Shown here: one piece after another, positions 3,129 to 9,414 of the stretch
How the letters are laid out: the number at the start of each line of letters is the position of its first letter
Numbering within the stretch: the stretch's first letter is position 1
IMG/VR virus record: IMGVR_UViG_3300025102_000226
Coordinates: 1-27,360 of that record
Direction: 5' to 3' (one strand)
DNA: 27,360 bases
Origin: a virus
The notes under the pieces: generated by a model
The model's database searches: none
Told to the model about the DNA's origin: nothing
The model's input: the letters and a program-made list of their open reading frames with translations, nothing else
Position numbers and translations under genes: made by a program

Positions 3129-3593
3129 TTAAGATATTTTTTCTACTTTAGCAGAGCCAATACCTAAATCCTTTTTGACTTGTTCGATATATTTACTACT
3201 TTCAAACAAACCTAAAAATACATCTGCTGACATACCAAGATGACTAAATGCTTTTGTTAATGCATCAGTCATAACTTTTTTACCAGCTTCGTCATCAAAT
3301 TTACCTTTGCTATTTTTCAAAGGAAGTAAAGAACATACTGGACCAAAACTATTTGCTTGGTGTTTTGTCCAAACAGTTACTTCAGCTGATATATAATCAT
3401 CAGCATAATGATACTTTACATCATAACCCCAGCCATGTCCACATGGACCAAAGTTATCAGTCATTTTACCAATTTGATACATTGGGTCTATACTAGTAAA
3501 ACCACGACCGAAGGTTACTTCTTTAGTGAATCTAGGATCAGTTACTTTTAATTGATCCCATATTTGTTTATTAGTCTTTAATTTCTCACTCAT
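3129..3593 (-). CDS. Rad52/ERF/Sak-like single-strand annealing protein
   Basis: The 154-residue protein starts NKQIWDQLKVTDPRFTK, continues with SIDPMYQIGKMTDNFGPCGHGWGY (in two parts, about residues 34-57) and a beta-rich segment (YISAEVTVWT). It ends its core with KKVMTDALTKAFSHLGMSAD and VFLGLF. This order, with the conserved TDALTKA helix, is that of phage annealing proteins in the Rad52/ERF/Sak group. They pair complementary single strands, usually working with an exonuclease and SSB. Both partners are in this operon (YqaJ-type exonuclease upstream, SSB downstream), which strongly supports the call. Its start overlaps the stop of the gene before it (ATGA). The exact subfamily cannot be fixed by eye. 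Confidence 0.78.
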   Translation of the reverse strand: MSEKLKTNKQIWDQLKVTDPRFTKEVTFGRGFTSIDPMYQIGKMTDNFGPCGHGWGYDVKYHYADDYISAEVTVWTKHQANSFGPVCSLLPLKNSKGKFDDEAGKKVMTDALTKAFSHLGMSADVFLGLFESSKYIEQVKKDLGIGSAKVEKIS

Positions 3594-3904
3594 TTAAACA
3601 CAATCCTTTCCTGATTTGTTTTGTGAATCCACACAATAACATTTCTGTTATTATGATTTTTTCTTCTATTACCAGAATCAATTATTTTATTTTGTTCTGA
3701 TAATTCTGTTAGTCTTGGTCTTATATTTAGTAAATCTTCTTCTAAATATATTGCAAGTTCTTCTGCTGTCATACCTAATTTAAAGTATGACAAAACATCT
3801 TCAACTCTATGTAAGAGCTTGGCTCTTTTATAAGAACCAATTTTTTCTGCTGCTTCTTTACTAGTAGTATTATTAGTATAACCAGCACTATTAGGATATT
3901 TCAT
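3590..3904 (-). CDS. Winged-helix DNA-binding-like protein
   Basis: The start is ATG 3904, which overlaps the stop of the exonuclease gene (ATGA); an upstream in-frame ATG at 3961 would lie inside that gene. The 104-residue protein has an N-terminal helix pair (TSKEAAEKIG), then MTAEELAIYL (45-54), RPRLTELSEQNKII (62-75) and a final strand NVIVWI (88-93). Helix, recognition helix, short linker and a strand ending in VW is the pattern of a winged helix. It may bind DNA as a regulator or help the recombination proteins between which it lies. That role is inference. Confidence 0.65.
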   Translation of the reverse strand: MKYPNSAGYTNNTTSKEAAEKIGSYKRAKLLHRVEDVLSYFKLGMTAEELAIYLEEDLLNIRPRLTELSEQNKIIDSGNRRKNHNNRNVIVWIHKTNQERIVFK

Positions 3905-4524
3905 GCTATTTCCTCTACTAAATATTGTGTTTTTCTTTTCTTTTGATAATCCTGATACCAATCAAAATGAGGTATTGTTTTATCTTTAATACATAAATAC
4001 AAATATTTTTCTACTAGTACTAAATCAGCAATATATTTATCATCTCTTTCTACTTTGAAAATATGATGATTCATATTACCAGCAAATATTGATAAATATG
4101 CTAGATTAAAATCTAATACATTCATGTAATGTTGTAGCTGACCATAATATTTTTGTACTTGGTCTCCTACTGGTTTAAAAGGATTAGTATGTTTAGCTTC
4201 AAAGATAGCTTCTCCAAAATCGACTAATCCATCTACTCTAGCATGAGCATATGGTTTATCTGGATCAGTCCATATTTCATCTGAACTACTTACTGGTAAC
4301 CCAGTAATCATTGTAAACCACCTTCGGTTTAATTCTTCGGTTGCTATACCCATCTGAACTGGTAATACATTAGATAGATCAGTAGTTACTTCATTGATCT
4401 TATCTTCTACAATTTTACGCCATTCATTATAAGTACCGAGAACAAGTTTGTTGGCATCACTGCCACCAATAGTCTTTAGGACCTTAAACTCCGTTCCCTC
4501 TTTTTGTTTTTGTATGTCTTCCAT
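3901..4524 (-). CDS. YqaJ/lambda-exonuclease-like PD-(D/E)XK nuclease
   Basis: The 207-residue protein has the ordered motifs of YqaJ-type viral recombination nucleases: GGSDANKL (20-27), PVQMGIATEEL with acidic E63/E64, ARVDGLV with D98, FEAKHTN with E109-x-K111, and YYGQLQHYM with Q129/Q131. D98, E109 and K111 form the PD-(D/E)XK metal-dependent active site. Such enzymes resect double-stranded DNA 5' to 3' and leave 3' single strands for an annealing protein, encoded here two genes downstream. AGAGGAAAT, 9 bases ahead, supports ATG 4524. Its start lies inside the upstream gene by 49 bases. Confidence 0.88.
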   Translation of the reverse strand: MEDIQKQKEGTEFKVLKTIGGSDANKLVLGTYNEWRKIVEDKINEVTTDLSNVLPVQMGIATEELNRRWFTMITGLPVSSSDEIWTDPDKPYAHARVDGLVDFGEAIFEAKHTNPFKPVGDQVQKYYGQLQHYMNVLDFNLAYLSIFAGNMNHHIFKVERDDKYIADLVLVEKYLYLCIKDKTIPHFDWYQDYQKKRKTQYLVEEIA

Positions 4525-4766: not shown

Positions 4767-4938
4767 GGGTTAAGTCCTTCCAGTTTGCAAAAACAGCTTT
4801 ACTTACATCTTCATGTAAAACTTTTAAATTACCTATGTGAATTTGTGTTGGGCTTCCAACATTATTATTAACTTGTTTTATCTCATCTTTAGTTAATGAA
4901 ATAAATAGTTTTCTATCTTGATATATTATCCTCATCAT
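4750..4938 (-). CDS. Hypothetical small protein
   Basis: This is a 62-residue protein of mixed composition with no motif recognised. Two adjacent ATG codons open the frame; the second (4935) is better spaced from the GAGGA upstream. It overlaps the XRE regulator gene before it by 26 bases and the next gene by 17, so all three are probably translated from one message. Linkage to the regulator is the only functional hint. Confidence 0.5.
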   Translation of the reverse strand: MMRIIYQDRKLFISLTKDEIKQVNNNVGSPTQIHIGNLKVLHEDVSKAVFANWKDLTHEDYK

Positions 4939-5158
4939 TCCTCAATTCTAATACAATATCACAATCTAATGCATCAGCCCAGCAACAAAATAAATATCCA
5001 CTCGGTTTCCGTATACCGACTTCCCATTTTGATACTAAGCCTTTAGCTACTCCAAGAATATCATCTAAGTTTGCTTGTGTAATATTCTTACGGTTTCTTG
5101 CTTCCACAAATTGAGGAATAACTTTTGTAAAAAACTTTTTACCAAGAGCATATTCCAT
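4913..5158 (-). CDS. XRE-family helix-turn-helix regulator
   Basis: The 81-residue protein contains a Cro/CI-type helix-turn-helix at about residues 17-52: RNRKNITQANLDDILGVAKG followed by LVSKWEVGIRKPSG. The TQANLDDILGV helix, the SKWEVG recognition segment and RKPSG are standard for this family. I chose ATG 5158; a TTG at 5164 would add two residues. It is the first gene of the leftward recombination block and is preceded by repeated AAGGCA/TGCCTT sites that could be its operator. No integrase or second repressor is visible, so a lysogeny switch is not supported; control of early genes is likelier. Confidence 0.8.
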   Translation of the reverse strand: MEYALGKKFFTKVIPQFVEARNRKNITQANLDDILGVAKGLVSKWEVGIRKPSGYLFCCWADALDCDIVLELRNDEDNISR

Positions 5159-5186
5159 ATTCAAGAAGTAATATTTTTTTAGACGA

Positions 5187-5287: not shown

Positions 5288-5427
5288 CACAAACCACTAT
5301 GACAAAACTACGAGGATGTGCAGAACGTTACTGTTATATCTGCTTTAGTAGAGATCAGGCTACTTATAACAACATCCTCTCCCTATAGGGAACTTTTATG
5401 GGGTGCATACGCACCCCAAAATTTTTA
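5288..5427 (+). ncRNA. Candidate plus-strand small RNA with its own promoter and terminator
   Basis: A promoter-like pair, TTGCAA (5256-5261) and TATAAA (5278-5283) with a 16-base spacer, would start a transcript near 5289. The transcript would contain a nested hairpin: GAGGATGT (5312-5319) with ACATCCTC (5372-5379), GTTATA (5333-5338) with TATAAC (5365-5370), and AGTAG (5347-5351) with CTACT (5360-5364). Next come a small palindrome TCCCTATAGGGA (5380-5391) and a terminator-like stem GGGGTGC/GCACCCC (5400-5417) before AAAATTTTT. No open frame of note lies here. The gene order on both sides is leftward, so the RNA would lie between two leftward units. Confidence 0.4.
5400..5426 (+). terminator. 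Terminator-like hairpin GGGGTGC-ATAC-GCACCCC
   Basis: A perfect 7-bp G+C-rich stem with a 4-base loop ends at 5417 and is followed by AAAATTTTT on the plus strand. It also lies just past the stop of the leftward DUF932 gene (5425), so it could act as a leftward terminator, although the leftward 3' flank (ATAAAAG) lacks a T run. Confidence 0.5.
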
Positions 5428-6243
5428 ATTAAATACTGTCATATTAGCAACTTTTCTTTGTCTATCATATACTGTATTGATAGATGCACTTGGGTAATGC
5501 GTTGCCCAATGAGTGTATGCTTGATATGCAGTAAACAAATTATCACCATATCTACTACGATATTTAGTATATTCTTTATCTATGTATTGTGCCATTGCTT
5601 GATTTACATGACTTTTATCTTTAGCAGTTGGCTGAAAACATAATATATTAATATGATCTTTAATATCATTTTGTGATACTTTTTCACTATACCAATCATT
5701 TAAATATGTAGTAACTTTGCCTAAGTTTTTAATATCAGTAGTATTTTGACTACTATCTAAGACAAAATCTTTCTTACTGCTATGTCTTTTAGTAATATAT
5801 ATATCCCATAGTTTATGACCTAAACCATTAGAACATATTTCATATACATAACTTAGTAATAATATATATGATCTAGTACCATTTAAACTATTAAACATAG
5901 ATCCTTTTAATAATATTTTACTATCTTTAAAAGGTTGTTGATACTTTGGTAATGTAAAATCATATCTGAGTACAGTACCATCTGGTGATGCATGAGGAGT
6001 AATTATCATACCCTCAGTATCAAAGTTATTATCCAAATAAGTCATTGTATTTACTAGACATTCTTCATTAGTAAATACTTGATATGACTGCTTTTGTACA
6101 GCTAACAACTGATCTGTTGTACCATTTCTTAGCTGTTTATAACCTTTGATGAGTTCACCTTGTTGGTTATAGATAGGCATTTCTTGAACTGGAAAAAACA
6201 AATGTGCATTGTTTTCTAGTTCGGTTTGTATTAGTGTGTTCAT
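5425..6243 (-). CDS. DUF932 family protein
   Basis: The start is ATG 6243, behind AGGAAAGGA; the longer frame begins at an unlikely TTG. The 272-residue protein follows the DUF932 pattern: an N-terminal region with GYKQLRNGTTDQLLAVQKQS and YQVF, a beta-rich centre (LRYDFTLP), a Cys-Asn-Gly motif (YEICSNGLGHKLW) and a C-terminal region with LFTAYQAYTHWATHYP. Members are common in phages and plasmids beside recombination or replication genes, but their biochemical role is not established. It is the last gene of the 7451-5425 leftward unit. The call rests on pattern memory. Confidence 0.75.
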   Translation of the reverse strand: MNTLIQTELENNAHLFFPVQEMPIYNQQGELIKGYKQLRNGTTDQLLAVQKQSYQVFTNEECLVNTMTYLDNNFDTEGMIITPHASPDGTVLRYDFTLPKYQQPFKDSKILLKGSMFNSLNGTRSYILLLSYVYEICSNGLGHKLWDIYITKRHSSKKDFVLDSSQNTTDIKNLGKVTTYLNDWYSEKVSQNDIKDHINILCFQPTAKDKSHVNQAMAQYIDKEYTKYRSRYGDNLFTAYQAYTHWATHYPSASINTVYDRQRKVANMTVFN

Positions 6244-6269
6244 GTATAGTCCTTTCCTCTTATACAAAA

Positions 6270-7621: not shown

Positions 7622-8158
7622 TTATTCAGCAATCGCTGGTATCAATTCAGATCCAGTAATAACCTTTGGTAATTTTTGGTTATGTTTTGCTAACCACTCT
7701 TGACCTTTAACACTTTTTGATTGTAAGTTCTTTACATCTTTAACTTTACCAGATGAATAAGGAACATATTTTTCAATGTGTGTTTCGTAAAACTCAACAG
7801 TTGCTTGCCTCTTGGTTTCAAGTAATTCAAGGGTGTATTGCATTCTTTCAACAGACCACTCAATTTTACCTAATTGTTGTGAGTATGTTTCTTGACCCTG
7901 AAATGATGCTTTAACACTATTAATGTTAGAACCATTGATTTCTTTTAGTTTTTGGTAATCAATAGCTTTTGCATCCATCAATGATTGTTGATTCTTAATT
8001 CTGTAATCTAATCTTCTGATCTCAGAGCCAACCTCACATTTTAGATTGAACATATCATCATACTGCAACAATGCTTTATGTTGAGTAGTTAATGCTGATG
8101 TTGTATCAGTTTTAACAGATGCTAGTACTTCAGTTTCTTTTTGTTCTATTGTAGTCAT
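7622..8158 (-). CDS. Hypothetical coiled-coil protein
   Basis: The 178-residue protein is mostly helical, with heptad-like stretches at about residues 44-75 (VGSEIRRLDYRIKNQQSLMD) and 95-125 (QLGKIEWSVERMQYTLELLE). The last 45 residues are basic. No enzyme motif or membrane segment is seen. ATG 8158 is supported by AAGGAG 7 bases upstream. It is the only gene between the hairpin array and the large noncoding region and would be the first leftward gene read from that region, so it may be an early protein. Function unknown. Confidence 0.65.
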   Translation of the reverse strand: MTTIEQKETEVLASVKTDTTSALTTQHKALLQYDDMFNLKCEVGSEIRRLDYRIKNQQSLMDAKAIDYQKLKEINGSNINSVKASFQGQETYSQQLGKIEWSVERMQYTLELLETKRQATVEFYETHIEKYVPYSSGKVKDVKNLQSKSVKGQEWLAKHNQKLPKVITGSELIPAIAE

Positions 8159-8170
8159 TTTGTTCTCCTT

Positions 8171-8230
8171 ATAATTGATAATATATTTTATATATATTTT
8201 TTATATAATTTATATTTATCTTTTATCTCT
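8171..8230. promoter_or_regulatory. Extremely A/T-rich tract with promoter-like -10, possible unwinding element
   Basis: About 60 bases are almost entirely A and T. TATAAT, a perfect -10 hexamer, occurs on the plus strand at 8204-8209 and would start a transcript near 8216, just before the structured region. No good -35 lies at the right distance, and such hexamers arise by chance in A/T tracts. The tract also lies upstream of the leftward gene starting at 8158, so it probably holds divergent promoters. DNA unwinding at an origin is a further possibility. Confidence 0.35.
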
Positions 8231-8290
8231 AGTTCAGGTTTATCCTCGTCTAGATTTTCTCTTTATTAGCACATTTTCTAGTCAATGTTA

Positions 8291-8314
8291 GGAACGACTA
8301 CTTGGGAGTGAGTT
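8291..8314 (+). repeat. Direct repeat copy 1: hairpin module GGAACGACT..TTGGGAGTGAGTT
   Basis: GGAACGACT, two variable bases (AC here), then TTGGGAGTGAGTT. The same 24 bases recur at 8551-8574 with only the two variable bases changed. The module can fold with AAC/GTT and ACT/AGT stems, and the two changes fall in the terminal loop, which suggests selection on the structure. Confidence 0.75.
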
Positions 8315-8550
8315 ATTCACGTGATCGAGGGATCAAAAAATATTGTGTCAGATTGTTGCATCTTTAGATGCGACTAGATGATGCCATATTTTTCCGAGAG
8401 CTAAGCATTGACTAATGTGCTACGAGCATATAACAAGTCGTGAGCTCAGTCGTGAGCGAACGTCCTCCAGATAAGCGAGCTGAGAGAATCTAGAGAGAGG
8501 ACGAGGGAGACGCACCAAATGCGACATATCTGTCATATCAGAGACCAGAA

Positions 8551-8574
8551 GGAACGACTTTTTGGGAGTGAGTT
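8551..8574 (+). repeat. Direct repeat copy 2: hairpin module GGAACGACT..TTGGGAGTGAGTT
   Basis: This is the second copy, with TT in the two variable positions, exactly 260 bases after the first. It is also enclosed by ATCAGA (8538-8543) and TCTGAT (8574-8579), so it can sit at the end of a longer stem. GAAC/GTTC extends the base of the module by one pair relative to copy 1. Confidence 0.75.
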
Positions 8575-8756
8575 CTGATCTATAGAAAGGACGCATTAGC
8601 GATCGACCGAGCCTGCAGTGGTGCCAATTTTCTGAGATGGTTTATTTTGCTTGTCTTCAACTCCATCGAAAAATATGCTCCGTGCATATTTTTAGTGGTC
8701 ATTGGACCCTAGGACAATGATGTGGAAGTGCAGAAGGTTCTTCTGCTCGGAGCGAA

Positions 8757-8813
8757 CTTATGTTTAAAATCCTTGCGAAGCAAGGTTGAAGCGAGCTTCA
8801 TTTTAAATATAAG
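8757..8813 (+). other. Three-way-junction fold: 13-14 bp closing stem around two hairpins
   Basis: CTTATGTTTAAAAT (8757-8770) pairs with the segment 8800-8813 through 13-14 bp with one G-U pair. Inside it are CCTTGC/GCAAGG (8771-8785, loop GAA) and TGAAG/CTTCA (8787-8800, loop CGAG). The G-U pair would be a C-A mismatch on the other strand, so the fold is a plus-strand RNA structure. It ends just before AAGGAGTGAG, a sequence that resembles a ribosome binding site but has no gene behind it. Confidence 0.65.
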
Positions 8814-8903
8814 GAGTGAGAAAAAGATAGTAGATACAGTGAGATAATCAATGTCTACATTTTCTTCTTGACATCATTATTTGAGAAAGGTAACTAACAA
8901 GAG

Positions 8904-9317
8904 GTGCCTACGCAAGAAACGCAATTAACCGATAAAGAAAAGTCAGCAGTAGCAAAGTATGGACTAACACCCAAGCAAGTAAGGTTGGTAGATACACTTG
9001 TAGCCAGTGGATGTAGCATCAAAGAAGCATCAGTAAAGGCTGGATATTCAACGAAAGATGGGGGTAGAGTACAGGCGTCTCGAACACTACGAACTGCCAA
9101 GGTACAAAAGTACATGATGGATCAGTGTGCGAGAACACTAGGACTAGGTGCTGTAGTTGCGTCCAACAAACTTGTCCATTTAGCTGGTAGTGCCAAGAGC
9201 GAGTATGTGCAATTAGAAGCTAGTAGGGATGTACTTGACAGGGTAGGACTACGCACCCCCGACAAGGTACAACACAGCGTAGAAGGACAACTGAAGATCA
9301 ACATAGACCTGTCATAG
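8904..9317 (+). CDS. terS: Terminase small subunit (DNA-recognition component)
   Basis: The 137-residue protein has the small-terminase layout: LTPKQVRLVDTLVASGCSIK then EASVKAGYST (21-50), a helix-turn-helix typical of the family; a helical middle (RVQASRTLRTAKVQKYM); and a C-terminal oligomerisation-like region with AKSEYVQLEASRDVLDRVG. TerS binds the packaging site and directs TerL. The large subunit lies about 1.7 kb downstream, separated by small genes. The only good start is GTG 8904. G+C is about 45-56% across the gene, well above TerL and the structural genes, and Arg codons CGA and CGC appear here while neighbours use AGA. This suggests separate origin or a constrained packaging site inside the gene. 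Confidence 0.8.
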   Translation: MPTQETQLTDKEKSAVAKYGLTPKQVRLVDTLVASGCSIKEASVKAGYSTKDGGRVQASRTLRTAKVQKYMMDQCARTLGLGAVVASNKLVHLAGSAKSEYVQLEASRDVLDRVGLRTPDKVQHSVEGQLKINIDLS

Positions 9318-9414
9318 TTTGCAACGCAGACAACAGCGTTAGGTTCACAACTGAGGGGGGGTAGGGTTAAAAACTACTAGATTCAGTAGTGAACATGTGT
9401 TAAACAAACATTAG

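Follow-up and report, generated by a model that had tools for sequence, protein, structure and literature searches.

Late leader RNAs such as the 6S RNA of phage lambda and the put RNA of HK022 are structured plus-strand RNAs that lie upstream of late genes transcribed by the host RNA polymerase, and put-like RNAs are conserved in sequence. ROOL and GOLLD, which form RNA-only multimeric cages, are phage-encoded RNAs of about 600 nt or more, with a multi-domain layout and no assigned function. They are often found near tRNA islands (PMC12286853). Phages of the lactococcal c2 group, in turn, carry three unrelated types of origin and an untranslated transcript between their divergent modules, a region that supports plasmid replication (PMC7150918). 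These origin types of Ceduovirus are c2, bIL67, and 923, the untranslated transcript is named PE1-T, and plasmids replicate from such origins without phage proteins.

The locus described here lies in a 27,360-base virus record (the window, that is, the whole stretch of DNA analysed) from a pelagiphage-like podovirus, in which the minus strand encodes the early module and the plus strand the late one. The nearest isolate is Pelagibacter phage EXVC031P Hodr (66% over TerL). Besides the terminase small subunit (TerS), the late genes recognised on the plus strand are those for TerL, a head-tail adaptor, and the major head protein. The landmarks of the two modules and of the gap between them are the following.

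2132-2554, minus: SSB, early module
3129-3593, minus: exonuclease, early module
3901-4524, minus: RecE/YqaJ exonuclease, early module
4913-5164, minus: CII-like regulator (helix-turn-helix), early module, seen only in a short 83-aa form
5425-6267, minus: DUF932 protein, early module
7622-8158, minus: divergent early gene for a 178-aa alpha-helical, coiled-coil-like protein without assigned function
8159-8224, no strand: A/T-rich spacer from the ribosome-binding site (RBS) of the divergent early gene to the RNA
8225-8830, plus: whole structured RNA region, class A (folding z, the relative L105, no Rfam match)
8868-8896, plus: TerS promoter TTGACA-17-TAACTA, kept in all close relatives and missed by the first-pass annotation
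8904-9317, plus: TerS, late module

In Hodr, the CII-like protein is fused to a replication-initiation domain (L186, 3932-4459; phrog_1408, 5e-10).

The 745 bases between the divergent gene and TerS contain no convincing frame. In agreement with what had been claimed from the letters alone, the longest frames inside the region reach at most 58 aa and a conserved frame was not found; a 105-aa minus-strand frame of L105 is not conserved in the window, and a protein-coding reading was rejected. The region 8225-8830 is instead explained, with a probability of roughly 0.85, as an interchangeable non-coding cassette between the early and late modules, whose predicted plus-strand transcript is multi-domain, has a fold under selection, and ends before a separate TerS promoter.

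On the plus strand, the region folds at -196.3 kcal/mol, far better than its shuffles (z -4.66, with 0 of 20 as good), compared with -159.9 kcal/mol and a z of -2.84 on the minus strand. The first-pass annotation had proposed two long-range helices and a series of local hairpins. Both helices form in duplex folds, P1 at -25.2 kcal/mol (8244-8262 with about 8482-8506) and P2 at -23.6 kcal/mol (8262-8290 with 8400-8424), while the hairpins are present in the minimum-energy fold and as inverted repeats. A direct repeat of 25 nt, with copies 92% identical, had been missed. The rise in G+C that had been described is real (39-52% over 8320-8619, with 20-30% in the sequence immediately preceding it), but the island is one-sided only, because TerS on its right is itself 45-50% G+C. 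The elements of the predicted fold are listed below.

8244-8262, plus: P1, 5' arm of the long-range helix, pairing with 8482-8506
8267-8287, plus: P2, 5' arm, TAGCACATT....TAGTCAATG (inverted repeat, duplex fold)
8290-8314, plus: 25-nt motif AGGAACGACTACTTGGGAGTGAGTT, copy 1, conserved in L105
8336-8393, plus: hairpin with compensatory base pairs relative to L105
8406-8422, plus: P2, 3' arm, CATTGACTAATGTGCTA, overlapping a -35-like TTGACT at 8408-8413
8482-8506, plus: P1, 3' arm, pairing with 8244-8262
8507-8650, plus: domain II, non-homologous between the window and L105, internally exchanged
8550-8574, plus: 25-nt motif, copy 2, within domain II and absent from L105
8668-8746, plus: domain III, with hairpins 8669-8693, 8699-8720, and 8730-8746 (minimum-energy fold)
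8753-8816, plus: Y element, a 14-bp stem with two small hairpins

Class A has one further member among 2.9 million viral contigs, L003, which is the same as L105. Searches for more members with exact patterns returned L003 again and nothing else, and in annotated phages no similar DNA was found beyond a 31-base A/T-rich chance match. The class A body of L105 is 85-91% identical to that of the window. When domain I is compared on the window's fold, 77 pairs are unchanged, 5 are compensatory, where random substitution would give 0.81 (p 0.0005), and 9 are broken, where it would give 15.9 (p 0.0145). In addition, the end of P1 passes from UCUC/GAGA in the window to GCCC/GGGC in L105, with partners 220 bases apart, a change seen in the sequences and in duplex folds that is under-counted in the tally because of an alignment gap. 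P2 is uninformative in this respect, since its 5' arm is invariant in L105. An initial alifold count of 12 double changes was set aside because it took in domain II, which is non-homologous between the two phages. Covariation in class A is modest, as two sequences are known.

L103 is 97% identical to the window in the left gene and 93% in TerS, L104 reaches 96-99% identity across TerS and the 1.5 kb that follow, and neither has any similarity in the RNA body. The left gene of L105 is 69% identical in DNA, despite the shared RNA body. The predicted RNA element is a swappable cassette, with near-identical phages carrying an unrelated structured RNA in the same slot. This other RNA, class B, is found in L103, L104, L106-L108, L014, L195, L197, L198, L200, L201, L204, and L206, as well as in the more distant L007-L009, and 13 of its 31 pairs are changed on both sides. 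It shares with class A the slot, the strand, and in some phages the Y element, but its body has no sequence similarity to class A. In L007-L009, class B ends in a GC hairpin and a run of T8-9, directly before the TerS promoter. In L109, whose TerS is about 90% identical, the gap is A/T-rich and unstructured.

The Y element is common to the class B phages L104, L106, and L107, and absent from L103, L108, and L014. Across five phages, 94% of its cells are paired and 7 of 24 pairs have changed on both sides, with a covariation score of 0.317 against 0.119 for shuffled alignments (reached by 0 of 500 shuffles). Its covariance model (R2) finds this locus alone, and matches the window at 8753-8816 on the plus strand with 80.7 bits, the window being one of the five training sequences.

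The exchange of different RNAs at one slot, with one close relative lacking any, is what is seen for accessory genes, and would fit a free-standing RNA acting in trans, either an ornate RNA that works as ROOL and GOLLD do or a decoy or counter-defence RNA. Its size, its multi-domain layout, and the intrinsic terminator of class B in L007-L009 agree with such a role. However, a structured element is present exactly here in almost every family member, which is unusual for accessory genes, and the likeness to GOLLD and ROOL raised by the first-pass annotation is limited to size and layout. A cmscan against all Rfam 15 families gave no match at the gathering score, and the matches at E<=10 were limited to uup, mir-5595, sroH, and PsrR1, none of which reached gathering; membership of ROOL or GOLLD is not supported, because there was not even a weak match to either. 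ARAGORN found no tRNA genes in the window. An accessory RNA acting in trans is regarded as rather doubtful.

The proposal that class A is homologous to the class E hairpin of relatives (model R1) was also unsupported, the best score in the window being 6.9 bits (E 0.66). The 25-nt GGAACGAC..GGGAGTGAG motif was rejected as a signature, because about 13 or more matches are expected by chance and its 13 viral-contig matches include only L003 at this locus. A new class, as had been suggested, is a reasonable description at the level of sequence, where two members are known, but class A is better described as one allele of a family-wide, interchangeable structured cassette.

This family-wide character was addressed in TerS and TerL relatives, by analysing what lies upstream of TerS in each. 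Folding z averages -5.0 on the plus strand and -4.5 on the minus strand across 82 loci. The stem search used Watson-Crick scoring, which is strand-symmetric and therefore unable to prefer a strand; its best stem score was 18.6, against a shuffled 95th percentile of 13.2. The slot is strongly structured in 53 non-redundant loci, within whose stems G.T mismatches number 213 and A.C mismatches 72; G.T prevails in 42 of these loci and A.C in 4. The G.T to A.C ratio is 1.27:1 in dinucleotide shuffles, and control regions give 52:51 (downstream coding sequence) and 60:55 (left module). The binomial p-values of this test are inexact because the loci share ancestry, but the contrast of 42 loci with 4 is robust to it. 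An excess of G.U over A.C that is absent from neighbouring regions indicates that pairing is most likely selected in the plus strand, which is what an RNA transcribed in the late direction should show. Part of the excess could stem from selection that keeps the minus-strand early mRNA free of hairpins. With the folding energies, the compensatory changes relative to L105, and the covariation of the Y element, this bias upholds the initial proposal of a large structured plus-strand RNA at the early/late divergence.

The strong folding of both strands (mean z -5.0 and -4.5) could also reflect a DNA element, with the inverted repeats acting as cruciforms or single-stranded hairpins in replication, packaging, or promoter DNA; the long near-perfect inverted repeats of Hodr and others and the position next to TerS would be in line with it. 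A plus-strand single-stranded DNA would show the same sign of G.U bias. Nonetheless, a GT:AC bias of 3:1 needs one single strand as the selected form, and the folds are multi-branched, with conserved loops in class B and the Y element; a DNA element is considered improbable.

Many distant relatives, among them Hodr, have arms of 100-150 nt: the 5' arm extends into the beginning of the early gene, with the 3' arm as a degenerate inverted copy of it (left-gene limits taken from ORF calls). In Hodr itself (L181, -426 to -88 from the TerS match), the inverted repeat is imperfect, its arms measure about 140-150 nt, and it takes in the RBS and start of the early gene. A divergent-promoter account of these repeats was rejected: conservation of the -10 does not hold for the minus strand, and the arms enter coding sequence. 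The same geometry would allow the plus-strand RNA to act as an antisense regulator that overlaps the 5' end of the divergent early gene and is complementary to it. In Hodr, L161, L177, L178, L049, L077, and others, the 5' arm does extend into the RBS and first codons of that gene, and the 3' arm is its inverted copy. In the window, however, about 65 nt separate the early gene from the beginning of the RNA, and only a 12-bp CTCCTTATAATT / AAATATAAGGAG match is kept, which is lost in class B phages such as L106 and L107; antisense control is considered very unlikely.

Upstream of TerS, another conserved structured motif, CCCAGAYCGAAGCCC..GGG.GCAGACC..TGGCTGC..TTTA.CGAGRGCTGG, occurs at loci L117, L118, L121, L123, L127, L134, L136, and L151, with related forms in L150, L122, and L143. 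An Rfam scan covering L017, L018, L021, L036, L043, and others, gave no match.

No convincing promoter to start the RNA was found in the window. The sole plus-strand promoter-like match to its left, TTTATA-18-TATATT at 8187-8216, would place the RNA start near 8223, and it is weak evidence because 2.4 such matches are expected by chance for the 1 observed. A further -35/-10-like sequence, overlooked at first, is TTGACT-15-TATAAC at 8408-8434, on the P2 3' arm (TATAAC at 8429-8434). In the window and many relatives, the main stem carries a TTGAC box on its 3' arm and base, joined in about half of the loci by TATAAT, so that this stem covers a promoter-like -35 and spacer. These sequences, the selection of the late strand, and the terminator before TerS in L007-L009 would be compatible with a leader or insulator acting in cis, in which the structured RNA controls the entry of host RNA polymerase into the late operon, or processes or insulates the border of convergent read-through with the late mRNA. 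Such a role would recall lambda 6S and HK022 put. Against it, the window has a separate conserved promoter downstream of the RNA, right at TerS, and no intrinsic terminator (GC hairpin and T run) in 8100-9000, and the sequence conservation of put-like RNAs is not found in these; a cis-acting leader is unlikely.

In the window (8868-8906), the TerS GTG at 8904 is at or adjoining the predicted +1, which suggests that the TerS mRNA may be leaderless. In relatives, the TerS promoter (TTGACA, followed by an A-rich -10) leads directly into a twin G run such as GGGGGGGACACAGGGGGGGTT, located where transcription is expected to start (L161, L164, L167, L170, L171, L177, L178, L064, and L068, with variants in L153, L172, L173, L077, L071, L061, and L063). 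Across all fetched loci, there are 43 twin G6 runs and 0 twin C6 runs, and the element is thus orientation-specific. Such runs recall R-loop or G-quadruplex primer sites, as in mitochondrial CSB II. Just 3' of TerS, at 9352-9365, the window has a G run, GGGGGGGTAGGG, within an inverted repeat GTTCAC..GTAGTGAAC, and L195, L197, L201, and L206 carry GGGGGTGGGGGG-like runs in the same place; possibly, this is the twin G element in another position.

As for what the interchangeable cassette does, a tentative proposal, itself of rather low probability, is that it works like the origin of lactococcal c2-type phages. Host RNA polymerase would transcribe the stretch between the divergent modules into a structured RNA that is not translated, this RNA and the A/T-rich DNA next to it would let the host replisome start on a phage that lacks a recognised polymerase or replicative helicase, and different RNA types, swapped between phages, would do the same job. 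In favour of this proposal, the early module holds SSB and recombination nucleases, and a search of seven phages gave no DNA polymerase A or DnaB family match. The Hodr protein with a replication-initiation domain speaks against it, because the Hodr origin could be elsewhere, as does the unstructured gap of L109. A search for iterons, both in the initiator gene and in the gap, gave none.

At its early/late divide, a pelagiphage lineage common in marine metagenomes appears to maintain a structured RNA. An RNA with pairing and strand preserved but a sequence that can vary almost freely, and that phages exchange as a unit, would represent an unusual mode of RNA evolution. The isolate Hodr offers a way into its role, possibly in starting replication without a recognised polymerase or replicative helicase. 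The broadest proposal, put forward with low confidence, is that this marine phage lineage has a fixed slot for hyperdiverse, unrelated, interchangeable plus-strand RNAs that would all share one function, most likely to let host polymerases initiate replication in a transcript-dependent way, with class A as a new RNA class of the set.

In favour of the proposed origin, the locus resembles the c2 group: early and late modules diverge from a non-coding gap of about 600 bp, phages that are otherwise alike carry unrelated sequence types there, replacement is modular, and replication genes are few. Against it, the locus differs in that PE1-T folds no better than its shuffles (z -0.75), whereas the late strand of the window is strongly folded, and in that PE1-T is read in the early direction, whereas the pairing bias here points to the late strand. 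Among known systems, the predicted class A RNA is new at the level of sequence, and belongs to a kind already known, that of phage structured non-coding RNAs.
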